Positions 3,289-7,194 of a DNA stretch of 11,232 nucleotides are shown here, in pieces (within the stretch, counting starts at the first letter, position 1; each line of letters begins with the position of its first letter). The DNA is taken from positions 1 through 11,232 of the forward strand of contig JABFST010000112.1 in assembly GCA_013140465.1 (NCBI GenBank), read 5' to 3'. The position numbers were made by a program, and so were the translations under genes. The notes under the pieces are model-generated. The model made no database searches, was not told the DNA's origin, and worked only from the letters and a program-made list of their open reading frames with translations. Source of the DNA: Methylococcaceae bacterium. Lineage in GTDB: Bacteria; Pseudomonadota; Gammaproteobacteria; Methylococcales; Methylomonadaceae.

Positions 3289-3725
3289 TTACTCTCTGTC
3301 CGCTTGCCCCGCTCTTCCAGCACCCGGACTTTTAGGGCAATCTTATCCAATATGCCATTAACATATTTATGGCTGCCATCGGCGCCAAAATCCTTGGCGA
3401 GATTGATGCCTTCGTTTAACACCACCCGATACGGCATATCCAATCGGTGCAACAATTCATAAGTGCCTATCCGTAAAATCGCCCTTTCTACAGGATCTAT
3501 GGTATCTACCGGACGATCAACAAACTCGGTCAAGGCTTCGTCTATTGCCGACAAATGCTTGGGTACGCCATGAAACAGCTCGGTAAAATAACTTTTTTGG
3601 GCATCTTTCAGGCGTTGTTCTTCCAAAAACTGCCGTTCAATCTCAACTAAACTCTGCCCTGTCATCTGCCATTGATACAATGCCTGCACAGCAGCTTTAC
3701 GGGCATTGGTACGCGCTAAACTCAT
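3285..3725 (-). CDS. nusB: Transcription antitermination factor NusB
   Basis: A 146-aa all-helical NusB. With NusE (S10) it binds boxA RNA and supports antitermination of rRNA transcription. Seen here: the N-terminal ARKAAVQALYQWQ (residues 8-20), the central DPVERAILRIGTYELL (77-92), and the C-terminal VVLNEGINLAKDFG then KYVNGILDKIA (101-130), all typical. The gene shares one base with the ribH stop (TGATG) and four with thiL (ATGA), so the three are translated as a coupled set. Length is standard for the family. Confidence 0.96.
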   Translation of the reverse strand: MSLARTNARKAAVQALYQWQMTGQSLVEIERQFLEEQRLKDAQKSYFTELFHGVPKHLSAIDEALTEFVDRPVDTIDPVERAILRIGTYELLHRLDMPYRVVLNEGINLAKDFGADGSHKYVNGILDKIALKVRVLEERGKRTESK

Positions 3726-4201
3726 CAGGCTTCCAAACTAGCAAATAAACTGACCATTTCTATCGCCGACAAGGCCGCTTCCGCGCCTTTGTTGCCCGCT
3801 TTAGTCCCTGCACGCTCTATGGCCTGTTCAATGCTATCCACCGTCAACACCCCAAAACTGACCGGAATATCATATTGCAAAGACACATTTGCCAAACCTT
3901 TCACACACTCGCCCGCGACATATTCAAAATGTGGCGTACCGCCCCTAATCACTGCACCCAAGGCAATAATTGCATCATATTTTTTGCTTGCCGCAACGCG
4001 CTGCACCACCATCGGCAACTCAAACGCGCCCGGGGCTTTCACCAAATGGATGTCGGCACGGTCAGCACCATGACGCACCAGCGCATCTATCGCACCCGCT
4101 TCGAGTTGTTCAACAATAAAGCTGTTGAAACGTGACGCAACTAAGCAAAATTTACCGCCGTGGACGAGTAAATTGCCTTCATAAGTTTTTATTTTTGACA
4201 T
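3725..4201 (-). CDS. ribH: 6,7-dimethyl-8-ribityllumazine synthase
   Basis: A 158-aa lumazine synthase. It condenses 3,4-dihydroxy-2-butanone 4-phosphate (the product of ribBX) with the ribitylaminopyrimidine to form lumazine, the penultimate riboflavin step. Motifs: [11 protein letters not shown] (23-33), KAPGAFELP (55-63), [14 protein letters not shown] (82-95) with the catalytic-type His91, [17 protein letters not shown] (116-132) and GNKGAEAA (136-143). A plausible ribosome site, GAGA, precedes the ATG. In related genomes ribH normally follows ribBA directly; here a foreign-looking block of about 1.76 kb separates them, so either read-through from ribBX or a new promoter in the cassette or in the 65-bp spacer must drive ribH-nusB-thiL-pgpA. 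I see no clear promoter there. Confidence 0.96.
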
Positions 4202-4263
4202 GGTTTTCTCTGTGGTATCGTGTTATAAATTTTATTGCAAAAAATGGGTACGATCTTAGAATT

Positions 4264-4271
4264 AAATTATC
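4264..4271. repeat. Left copy of 8-bp inverted repeat at cassette edge
   Basis: AAATTATC here is the reverse complement of GATAATTT at 6021-6028. One copy overlaps the stop codon of the last cassette frame; the other sits immediately beside the ribBX stop. Both are AT-rich and only 8 bp long, so coincidence is quite possible. No target-site duplication is evident. Confidence 0.3.
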
Positions 4272-4449
4272 TTGCTACATTTTCATGAAACCGACAAAAA
4301 TGTACAGATAACTTAAATATAAACATATAAAATCCCACTTGACTTAAAGTGAACAACTTTTCGCAACGAGGGTTTTTAGATACATAATTTAAAGGTACTG
4401 TTTGCAAGTCGCTAAGCAATGCCATATAGTCCGCATCTAGCTTATCATT
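4267..4449 (-). pseudogene. C-terminal part of the third cassette protein, in the shifted frame
   Basis: About 60 codons, from NDKLDADYMALLSDLQTVPL to FCRFHENVAR, that read as the natural C-terminus of the gene upstream. Both frames stay protein-like up to the CCCCAAAAA run: frame one gives KVTHIFFLPQK then stop, and the next frame continues smoothly. The segment KLFTLSQVGFYMFIFKLSVHF is hydrophobic and regular, and the stop (TAA) lies 65 nt before ribH. An independent small gene starting upstream at MARFAQLRNKKS (4509) is the alternative, but it would overlap the preceding gene in another frame over a stretch where that gene looks genuinely coding, and it has no convincing ribosome site. Confidence 0.6.
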
Positions 4450-4858
4450 TTTGGGGTAAAAAGAATATATGAGTGACTTTTTGTTCCTTAATTGAGCGAA
4501 TCTTGCCATCTATCTTATCTTTGTCTATCCCTTTCTTTATTAGCAGATCAGTGTATTTATCAATTTTTATAAGTGGGGCAAAAGTCATCTTAATAGGTAA
4601 ATCCCGATAGTTACCAGTATCCATATCGCAAGAATTTGATAATAAAATCCCTTTTGTAAACTTTCTTTCCCCGCTGTCAAAATTAATAATTTGCAGCCCT
4701 GCCATACCGTCACCTTGCAAAATATCATTAGGGTAACGAGTCGTGTAATAATTTATTTTTTCAGGAAAATCGCTCAGCTCTTTGAGCAAGCCTTGTTTTG
4801 CATCTTCAGTTAGGTAGTATGGGATATGATTGGCTATGGAGTCTTCGCTTAATATCAT
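4445..4858 (-). CDS. Third cassette protein, N-terminal part (137 aa before frameshift)
   Basis: An unrecognised soluble protein that begins MILSEDSIANHIPYYLTEDA. I chose the ATG at 4858 because it lies one base after the stop of the preceding gene; a longer start (4906) would overlap that gene by 47 nt. A notable central segment, GILLSNSCDMDTGNYR, followed by ITFAPL-like text (MTFAPLIKIDKY), resembles the S-x-[ST]-C-D-[ILM] ... APL pattern I recall from several uncharacterised bacterial proteins; that is memory, not a search. The Cys-Asp pair could be functional. The frame stops at KVTHIFFLPQK, but the next frame continues with about 60 convincing residues, giving an intact length near 197 aa. 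No signal peptide or membrane helix is seen in this part. Confidence 0.65.
   Translation of the reverse strand: MILSEDSIANHIPYYLTEDAKQGLLKELSDFPEKINYYTTRYPNDILQGDGMAGLQIINFDSGERKFTKGILLSNSCDMDTGNYRDLPIKMTFAPLIKIDKYTDLLIKKGIDKDKIDGKIRSIKEQKVTHIFFLPQK
4448..4456 (-). other. Frameshift site, CCCCAAAAA
   Basis: On the minus strand the reading is TTA CCC CAA AAA TGA in the upstream frame and TAC CCC AAA AAT GAT in the downstream frame. One extra base in either homopolymer explains the break. The arrangement also allows a tRNA-Pro on CCC to slip one base forward onto an overlapping CCC just two codons before a TGA, so a programmed +1 shift cannot be excluded. A simple indel or a base-calling error in the homopolymers is more likely. 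Confidence 0.65.
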
Positions 4859-4859
4859 G

Positions 4860-5183
4860 TCAATCTTCGTATAGATCCCATAGATTATCAAATAAGACCT
4901 CTTCAAACTCTGTCCCTAAGGGTTCTTGACTTGCTAGCAGACTCGTGTAAAAACCCATAATCGATTTTTCAAAAACATCTTTTGTCGGTTTATATTGAAG
5001 GTGATTATTAGTTATTTGACTATATTCACTAAAAGTGCCACTGGTATCAGCTTCATTTTTAAAAGTGTCATTAACATAAACCTTATCAATATCACTAAAT
5101 AAAGCCTGACCCACCAACATGCCTGACATGATAATGACAGACCCTATCGTGCTTGGCTGTTGGTTTAAAATAAAATTACTCAT
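4860..5183 (-). CDS. Second cassette protein, 107-aa hypothetical
   Basis: A small protein of unknown function. The ATG at 5183 is preferred to the longer start at 5204 because GGAG lies 7 nt before it, and because the start codon overlaps the end of the TIGR04255-like gene by 8 nt (ATGAGTAA), a coupling arrangement. The N-terminus MSNFILNQQPSTIGSVIIMS leads into a mildly hydrophobic, glycine-containing stretch (residues about 11-28, ending GMLVGQALF) that could be a short membrane or packing helix. The middle is polar and rich in Asn, Ser and Thr; the C-terminus is acidic and aromatic (FEEVLFDNLWDLYED). Its size and position between two larger partners suggest a linker or regulatory subunit, which is only inference. 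Confidence 0.7.
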   Translation of the reverse strand: MSNFILNQQPSTIGSVIIMSGMLVGQALFSDIDKVYVNDTFKNEADTSGTFSEYSQITNNHLQYKPTKDVFEKSIMGFYTSLLASQEPLGTEFEEVLFDNLWDLYED

Positions 5184-5919
5184 AAATTGGCTCCAGTGAC
5201 TCAATAGTCTTTTGAGTTAAACAATCAAAAAACTTAATTTTATTTACCTTTCTCGTATCATCAAAACGACCGACAAGTGTCTCTAGCGATACATCATTGA
5301 GGATAGCTATGGTATCAATATCAACAATTACGCCCTTTCTAACCGAATCATCTGGCAACACTATCTCTGCTGATGACATAATACTAATAACATTTACTAA
5401 CTGACCTTCATTAACCTCAAGACGCAGTTGAAATGCTTCATTTGTAAGCCGATGGTTAGCAAGCGTGACATTAAAATTAATGAATGAAACCTGCTCTTCC
5501 AAGCTCTCCGATGGAATAAGATTTATATACTTAATAGAATATCGTTGTACAGACTCAACAATGTGTATCTCTATCAATATATTTAATATTTCATTTATGG
5601 CGTCTTTAAATGCTAGCCATCCTGGATACTTAGGTGCTTGACTAGCAATAGAAATATTATTATCACCCACATTAATGTGAAACTGCTTCCAAATTAACCT
5701 ACTTATAGGAGCAAACCGCAAATGTGGGTCGGCATCCCTTATTGCCAATGGGATTTGCGCAACCGCAAGTTGCTCAATGCGCTTATCGCCCTCAAGCTTG
5801 CTGAATAACAAACCCGGAAGCACTGTTGACGCAGGGAATGCACTTGTAAACCTCACTTCAAACAAAGCCTCAAGCAAAGGGTCTTTATTAAGTTGTATAG
5901 GGAGTTCTTTTGTCATCAT
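5176..5919 (-). CDS. TIGR04255-like family protein, first gene of cassette
   Basis: A 247-aa protein whose layout matches, as I remember it, the sporadically distributed family TIGR04255 (about 250 aa, function unknown). Seen: the N-terminal PLLEALFEVRF motif (about residues 12-22 from the chosen start), a central YPGW..F element, a beta-rich QRYSIKYINLI segment, VIVDIDTIA, and the C-terminal KIKFFDCLTQKTIESLEPIY. The start is taken at one of two adjacent ATGs (5919 or 5916), giving MMTKELPIQLNKDPLLEALF; an upstream ATG at 5958 adds 13 residues that look unlike the family. The ribosome site is weak. It follows ribBX by 109 nt without a clear promoter. No signal peptide or membrane segment. 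Function unknown; neighbours suggest it acts with the next two products. Confidence 0.75.
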   Translation of the reverse strand: MMTKELPIQLNKDPLLEALFEVRFTSAFPASTVLPGLLFSKLEGDKRIEQLAVAQIPLAIRDADPHLRFAPISRLIWKQFHINVGDNNISIASQAPKYPGWLAFKDAINEILNILIEIHIVESVQRYSIKYINLIPSESLEEQVSFINFNVTLANHRLTNEAFQLRLEVNEGQLVNVISIMSSAEIVLPDDSVRKGVIVDIDTIAILNDVSLETLVGRFDDTRKVNKIKFFDCLTQKTIESLEPIYE

Positions 5920-6020
5920 TGCGATCAATCTTATGGCTAAACTTGTTACACATTGCAAGTGAAGGGCAACTTTACCCGAATATGATATGCCAAAGCGGTT
6001 TTACGCTCCATCAATCATCC

Positions 6021-6028
6021 GATAATTT
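6021..6028. repeat. Right copy of 8-bp inverted repeat at cassette edge
   Basis: GATAATTT, inverted relative to AAATTATC at 4264-4271. It directly abuts the ribBX stop codon (6029-6031), so if it is a real boundary, the insertion happened right after ribBX. Confidence 0.3.
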
Positions 6029-7135
6029 TTACCCCACATGCTCACACACTTCCAAATCAAAGCCCGACAAGCCTATATATTTTTTATGCGTACCCAACAC
6101 CTTTAATTTATGCACGCCCAAATCAGCCAAGATGCGCGCCCCGGCCCCGGTCATGCGCCAATCGTCATTAGTGTCTACGGCTTTGGCGGCATCGACGATG
6201 CCGTGGTCTTGCAATTGGTAACGGTGGATCAGTTCGATCAGCGATTTATTGTCCTCGCTTTGGCGCACAATCACCAACACCCCACGCCCTTCTTCGGCGA
6301 TTTTTTGCATGGCGGTGCGTATCGACATACTGTAAGTATTGCGTTTGGACGACAACATATCATCCAGCAAATTGCGGGCATGAACGCGCACCAGCACCGG
6401 CTCATCGCCGGACACTTTGCCCATCACCAAGGCTAAATGCAGGTTATTGTCGTTTTTGTCCTGATAGGCGTACATCCTAAAATCACCAAACTCGGTCGGA
6501 AACGCACATTCGCTAATACGTTCCAAGGTGTTTTCGTGTTGGATACGGTAATGGATCAAATCGGCTATCGTACCCATTTTCAGCTTGTGTTGTTGGGCAA
6601 ACACTTCCAGGTCGGGCCGTCTTGCCATCGAACCATCTTCATTCAAGATTTCCACGATTACCGCCGACGGATCCACCCCAGCCAAACGCGCCAAATCGCA
6701 GCCCGCCTCGGTATGCCCGGCACGGCTTAACACGCCACCGGATTTTGCCATTAACGGAAAAATATGCCCAGGCTGCACCAAATCATCGGCTTTGGCATTC
6801 GCCGCGACCGCGCATTGCACCGTCCGCGCCCTATCGGCGGCAGAAATGCCCGTGGTCACGCCCGTTGCCGCTTCTATCGACACGGTAAAATTAGTCGAAT
6901 GCGCGGTTTTGTTGGCATTGGTCATCAACGGCAAGCGCAATTGCTGGCAACGCTCGCTGGTCAGCGTCAAACAAATCAGGCCACGCCCGTAACGCGCCAT
7001 AAAATTAATGTCTTCAGGGCGCGTAAACACCGCCGCCATCAACAGATCACCTTCATTTTCGCGGTCTTCATCATCCATAATGATGACCATTTTGCCTTGT
7101 TTTAAATCGTCTATGATTTCTTCAATAGTATTCAT
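6029..7135 (-). CDS. ribBX: 3,4-dihydroxy-2-butanone 4-phosphate synthase with degenerate GTP cyclohydrolase II domain (RibBX type)
   Basis: A 368-aa two-domain protein. The N-terminal DHBP synthase domain (about 1-200) converts ribulose 5-phosphate to the C4 precursor of riboflavin and is intact: DDEDRENEGD (21-30), STNFTVSIEA (80-89), GHIFPLMAKSGGVLSRAGHTEA (split GHIFPLMAKSGG, 123-134, and VLSRAGHTEA, 135-144) with the active-type His141. The C-terminal domain aligns with GTP cyclohydrolase II, but the three zinc cysteines of RibA are Asn255, Asn266 and Tyr268, and the catalytic RQEGRGIGL motif reads RQSEDNKSL. This domain is therefore unlikely to open GTP. Such RibBX proteins are described in Proteobacteria, where a separate ribA supplies the activity. 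I chose the ATG at 7135 (MNTIEEII) over an upstream TTG at 7144, with GGGG just before it. Confidence 0.93.
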   Translation of the reverse strand: MNTIEEIIDDLKQGKMVIIMDDEDRENEGDLLMAAVFTRPEDINFMARYGRGLICLTLTSERCQQLRLPLMTNANKTAHSTNFTVSIEAATGVTTGISAADRARTVQCAVAANAKADDLVQPGHIFPLMAKSGGVLSRAGHTEAGCDLARLAGVDPSAVIVEILNEDGSMARRPDLEVFAQQHKLKMGTIADLIHYRIQHENTLERISECAFPTEFGDFRMYAYQDKNDNNLHLALVMGKVSGDEPVLVRVHARNLLDDMLSSKRNTYSMSIRTAMQKIAEEGRGVLVIVRQSEDNKSLIELIHRYQLQDHGIVDAAKAVDTNDDWRMTGAGARILADLGVHKLKVLGTHKKYIGLSGFDLEVCEHVG

Positions 7136-7194
7136 CAGCCCCAAAATCCACTCTTTTGCAATAAGTCTTCAGTCATGCTGCCCAGTTGTTGGGC
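7135..7194 (-). pseudogene. Possible C-terminal remnant of riboflavin synthase (ribE)
   Basis: In the minus strand, reading in the frame that ends TGATG on the ribBX start, the codons give AQQLGSMTEDLLQKSGFWG then stop. The tail TEDLLQKSGF resembles the [ST]-[IL]-[ST]-x-x-[FL]-L-x-x-x-GF end that many riboflavin synthase alpha chains have, and the one-base overlap of stop and start is what an intact ribE-ribBA pair would show. A TAG stop at 7195-7197 closes the frame upstream, so at most 19 codons survive. This is short and could be coincidence. Confidence 0.4.
7180..7194. repeat. Small hairpin before ribBX, stem GCCCA/TGGGC
   Basis: A 5-bp stem (7180-7184 with 7190-7194) around a 5-nt loop, about 45 nt upstream of the ribBX start in its likely leader. 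There is no T-run, so it is not a terminator. It may be structural or chance. Confidence 0.35.

Follow-up and report, generated by a model that had tools for sequence, protein, structure and literature searches.

We analyzed an 11,232-nucleotide stretch of DNA (here, the window; contig JABFST010000112.1 of assembly GCA_013140465.1) from a Methylococcaceae bacterium, in which three genes, designated g1, g2, and g3, lie between ribBA and ribH in the rib operon. On balance, we favor the reading that this insert represents a conserved accessory module of three genes, frequently found on temperate phages and integrative elements, that protects the lysogen against other phages. It is very likely that the module is transferable and often carried by temperate phages. 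The computed basis comprises the recurrence of the trio, the linked divergence of its proteins, its sporadic spread, the phage placement of several copies, the predicted fold of g3, and the empty sites in relatives.

Architecture of the insert

On the minus strand, the order of genes in the window is ribBA, the low-GC (guanine-plus-cytosine) block of three genes, and then ribH, nusB, thiL, and pgpA. The features are as follows.

6029 to 7144, minus strand: ribBA, the intact upstream flank, with RibBA 97% identical to that of the closest relative (G002)
4202 to 6028: ribBA-ribH intergenic stretch with the insert, 1,827 nt
5176 to 5919, minus strand: g1, 247 amino acids, a TIGR04255/phrog_5464 protein and putative sensor or adaptor
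4860 to 5183, minus strand: g2, 107 amino acids, phrog_5728, a possible antitoxin or tether
4445 to 4858, minus strand: first piece of g3, 137 amino acids from the ATG, comprising the N-terminal extension plus a large part of the region predicted to have the MazF fold
4267 to 4509, minus strand: second piece of g3, in another frame, with the C-terminal part and its conserved K.S.H..R..E...R helix; not a gene of its own
3725 to 4201, minus strand: ribH, the intact downstream flank, followed by nusB, thiL, and pgpA

A sequence-only reading of this DNA had described an AT-rich, same-orientation block splitting the rib operon, and the description holds: the three coding stretches are codirectional, and the GC content of the block is 0.359, versus 0.467 to 0.514 for ribBA, ribH, nusB, thiL, and pgpA. 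The tight coupling that it reported was also recovered, with an 8-nt overlap of g2 and g1 and a 1-nt gap between g2 and the start of g3 (4858). The names of the rib-operon genes are taken from that reading and rest on agreement by eye with the translations rather than on a family scan. No promoter-like site was found on the minus strand between ribBA and g1 in a weak scan, and the module may be expressed from the rib promoter. At the rib-operon site, no phage gene was recognized beside the module.

Within the same genome, 21 of 205 segments of the same size (from 20 of the 507 contigs) were equally or more AT-rich, composition being very spread. The standard deviation of GC content over these 205 segments of 1.77 kb was 0.129; the completeness of the bin is 83%, and its contamination is 2.5%. 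Because of the wide GC variation and these figures, the bin may be mixed.

Recurrence of the trio and its genomic settings

In a tblastn search of annotated phages, g1 and g3 were each found in four records, all from Pseudomonas phages and with one record held twice. A protein database gave 51 matches for g1 and 1,131 for intact g3, of which the best 120 were listed. One g1 match (P0001), from a contig of 13.4 kb, is 98% identical. A g3 profile was then used to define a set of loci; it found 95 relatives, from which 80 genome loci were fetched, and 33 viral loci were added. In 103 of these 113 loci, g1 lay directly upstream of g3 on the same strand with room for g2; there is some redundancy in this set, in which several viral loci are near identical or duplicate genome loci, and the 103 loci represent 85 different g3 sequences. 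An open reading frame occupied the gap between g1 and g3 in 98 of the 103, three of these being judged to be in the wrong frame. By our reading of the record titles, many of which belong to metagenome bins, the loci span about ten phyla (Pseudomonadota, Desulfobacterota, Campylobacterota, Bacteroidota, Ignavibacteria, Verrucomicrobiota, Lentisphaerae, Fibrobacter, Cloacimonadota, and Hydrogenedentes).

The three proteins diverged together. Their pairwise distances across 76 loci were correlated at 0.81 to 0.84, with 0 of 1,000 permutations as high, although this correlation is partly due to shared host ancestry. The GC content of the module was below that of its flanks in 66 of 67 genome loci. 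Between a Desulfobulbaceae bin and a genome of the window's own family, g1 was 72% and g3 75% identical. A transfer from one phylum to another would be expected to give such a likeness, but a bin may contain DNA of more than one organism.

Several of the copies were found in mobile DNA. In phage VW-6S and the IMG/VR prophages L129, L130, and L132, the trio lies 43 to 218 nt downstream of the CI repressor gene on the same strand, a placement not common to all prophages. The trio follows an integrase in six loci (L051, L054, L109, L149, L152, and L157) and likewise in a circular Phocaeicola element. In Dobby, a phiCTX/P2-like phage, it adjoins the portal gene; the accessible part of the Dobby paper reports seven hypothetical proteins absent from phiCTX and is silent on whether the trio is among them (PMC7454045). 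Near-identical copies (at least 99%) are present in 92 of 5,426 complete Escherichia coli genomes, which makes a laboratory test straightforward. All three of the E. coli copies that we opened adjoin antiterminator Q of a lambdoid-type prophage; the holin lies directly on the other side in two of them, and in RM8082 a transposase and other genes come before the holin. By annotation, damage is present in two of these copies (g3 is shorter in RM8082 and g1 is frameshifted in SUISSEKPC3NDM5; loci L196 and L197, respectively), indicating that decay of the module recurs. An intact trio from a lambdoid prophage of E. coli spans 14001 to 15728 of locus L195. A further copy, in genome G041, adjoins HsdR, HsdM, and HsdS of a type I restriction-modification system and an AAA_15 ATPase. 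However, the 126 neighbor genes of the genome loci include only 7 to 9 integrases and no dominant defense family; thus, phage carriage is demonstrated for only part of the copies.

Empty sites and sporadic distribution

Given the shared strand and the tight packing with the operon, the trio might be regarded as native rib-operon genes, vertically inherited in this lineage. We searched 40 relatives and fetched 29 loci, 2 of which ended at a contig edge, and the other 11 relatives yielded no locus. The sequence-only reading had proposed this junction comparison, and the ribBA-ribH junction proved to be free of the trio in all 27 relatives in which both genes were readable, measuring less than about 185 nt versus 1,827 nt in the window. 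The relative with the 97% identical RibBA has an empty junction of about 83 nt. The relatives thus do not share these genes at this site, the trio does recur elsewhere, and a native origin, also at odds with the presence of phrog_4575 (the family of g3) in only 5 of 151 family genomes, is refuted by the empty sites; we give it almost no weight. By eye, the ribBA-ribH gap of two relatives (L012 and L017) contains a short palindromic stretch resembling a miniature inverted-repeat transposable element, and the junction may therefore be permissive for insertions.

At the level of the phylum, phrog_4575 was present in 8 of 398 genomes and phrog_5464, the family of g1, in 5 of 398 (the window's own genome is counted in these and in the family figure). 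Among the eight genomes with phrog_4575, the window's own, G431, G315, and G503 also carry phrog_5464. G250 and G314 have divergent g1 and g3 genes (E values of 1e-15 to 1e-24 with profiles made here) separated by a gene of 121 or 123 amino acids. In G272, g3 and a 123-amino-acid gene come after a 308-amino-acid gene without a match to the g1 profile, and the locus of G302 reaches a contig edge. The g2 profile had no match among the middle genes of G250, G314, and G272. The empty site, the sporadic distribution, and the conservation of the trio in prophages and integrative elements strongly support the earlier proposal that the insert is a transferable module.

The three proteins

The third gene, which the sequence-only reading took to encode about 197 amino acids, is not open throughout. 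The frame that begins at the ATG of g3 ends at a stop at 4445; the remainder of the homology, which corresponds to the C-terminal part, is encoded in a different frame (4509 to 4267). Because the two pieces match successive parts of phrog_4575 (E values of 2.8e-41 for profile positions 8 to 145 and 1.4e-17 for positions 130 to 206, of 209), g3 is a single gene interrupted by a frameshift. Intact copies of g3 exist elsewhere. If the frameshift is real and did not arise in sequencing or assembly, it has probably inactivated the window copy. The notion that its site protects the module from loss finds no support in the window copy, since its third gene is already broken.

Residues 45 to 192 of g3 have a predicted MazF/CcdB fold, of the MazF/Kid/CcdB class, preceded by an N-terminal extension of about 45 residues. 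The protein has conserved residues of its own (QGD, SNSCD, and H..R..E...R). Neither the g3 pieces nor the divergent relative L191 had a Pfam match to MazF/PemK (PF02452), and profile-profile comparison of g3 with 24 MazF sequences (P = 0.058) gave no link to MazF at the sequence level. The catalytic residues of MazF/PemK are Arg and Thr. Mapped by eye, the Arg-like position of g3 is K or R in 59 of 85 sequences, and the apparent Thr equivalent is not conserved. The repertoire of known toxin active sites would be broadened by a MazF-type fold that uses a different set of residues.

The assignment of g1 to a TIGR04255-like family was confirmed. g1 matched the NCBIfam model sporadTIGR04255 over positions 2 to 252 of 252 (E value, 4.6e-25; 88.9 bits, with a cutoff of 30) and phrog_5464 with an E value of 4.3e-57. 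Its AF2 model had a pLDDT of 96 and no match well above background in the PDB. The conserved columns of g1 persist across distant copies. The TIGR04255 model carries no function; here, g1 is part of a recurring trio, and other family genes lie in other operons. One of these is a second g1-family gene in the window's own genome (contig C277, locus L189, 6989 to 8979; phrog_5464 E value, 1.6e-47), in a row whose second and third genes (187 and 225 amino acids) are unlike the trio genes, have no Pfam or PADLOC match, and are again arranged with an 8-nt overlap and then a 1-nt gap. In the other (locus L193; G363, contig C94, 384 to 8769), the g1-family gene is flanked on one side by a DUF499 AAA gene and a weakly PglZ-like gene and on the other side by a 95-amino-acid gene, a true MazF/PemK gene (PF02452; E value, 1.1e-18), and a large DNA methylase. 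From these two cases, it seems that g1 may serve as a common sensor or adaptor that works with more than one kind of effector. TIGR04255, a function-less family annotated also in E. coli, is thereby linked to partners that recur and to temperate phages as frequent carriers, and it gains a role that can be tested.

The small middle protein, g2, has a hydrophobic N-terminal segment at about residues 13 to 29 and a conserved C-terminal tail ending in DNLWDLYED. It matched phrog_5728 (E value, 9.2e-5) and has 28 relatives in the protein database, one of them 99% identical. Among the 95 retained g2 sequences, a start giving an 8-nt overlap with g1 is possible in 53, a 4-nt overlap in 4, and neither in 38.

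The predicted fold of g3, the small second gene with its conserved tail, and the copy on an integrase-bearing circular element would also suit a toxin-antitoxin addiction module, with g3 as the toxin and g2 (with or without g1) as the antitoxin, that keeps a prophage or element in the cell and does not block other phages. We consider this unlikely because three genes co-occur rather than two, copies occupy phage cargo sites, and the columns of g1 conserved in distant copies would require another role for g1. It is similarly doubtful that the module is expressed in the lysogen for some other job, such as phage gene control, lysogenic conversion, or host metabolism, the MazF-like fold being a plain binding domain. 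The missing link to MazF at the sequence level and the lack of a known function for g1 fit such a job, as does CcdB, which has the same fold as MazF and poisons gyrase rather than cutting RNA. However, a role in conflict accords better with the occurrence of the trio in about ten phyla and several types of phage and with the copy in a restriction-modification locus.

Proposed working and comparison with known systems

The trio is probably an unnamed antiphage or toxin system. The sequence-only reading had raised a defense or toxin-antitoxin-like role as a hypothesis, and this role is now better founded (on the predicted MazF-type fold of g3, the phage cargo sites, and the copy beside type I restriction-modification genes), with the function itself still a model. 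The module would most likely protect the lysogen against other phages, in the manner of abortive infection or superinfection exclusion. The parts of this model that we infer are the defense function, sensing by g1, inhibition by g2, and RNA as the target. g3 would be an effector of the MazF/CcdB fold that arrests growth, most likely by targeting RNA, and the conserved C-terminal tail of g2 would keep it inactive, while the hydrophobic segment of g2 would perhaps place g2 and g3 at the membrane. g1 would detect a sign of infection and then free g3. More tentatively, the trio may represent an undescribed three-component immune family of about ten phyla, in which a TIGR04255 sensor is paired with varying partners, a small tail protein associated with the membrane acts as a plug on the effector, and the effector is a nuclease of the MazF fold whose new active site (formed by the conserved g3 residues) has possibly new chemistry or a new target.

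Like the MazF/PemK/CcdB toxins, the trio combines the predicted fold of g3 with a small gene just upstream; unlike them, it includes a third, TIGR04255 gene, and g3 lacks a Pfam or profile match and has its N-terminal extension and own set of conserved residues. The trio resembles RexAB and other lysogeny-linked exclusion systems in lying downstream of CI in several prophages but differs from RexAB in having three genes. No Rex family was among the Pfam and PHROGs matches of the window, the presence of Rex models in these libraries being unchecked. The matches were phrog_5464, phrog_5728, phrog_27626 (weak), and phrog_4575 in PHROGs and a weak DUF5497 only in Pfam.

A further likeness is to 3HP, which we take to be the three-gene P2-hotspot system of PMC9122126: both consist of three genes without recognized domains, and one copy of the trio adjoins the portal gene in a P2-like phage. 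As a possible difference, three trio copies had no convincing match in PADLOC-DB 2.0.0; the E. coli and Dobby trios had no match at an E value of 0.1, and the window matched only PDC-M01A (E value, 0.0036). The PADLOC-DB 2.0.0 catalogue reports 3HP according to PMC10855318; none of the models encountered here bore that name. Literature term searches returned no paper on the trio and no published phage-protection test of it.

Elsewhere in the window, two minus-strand genes at 498 to 1652 have type IV prepilin-like starts (GFTLIEVLVAM and GFTLVELMMT) by eye and are probably minor pilins.
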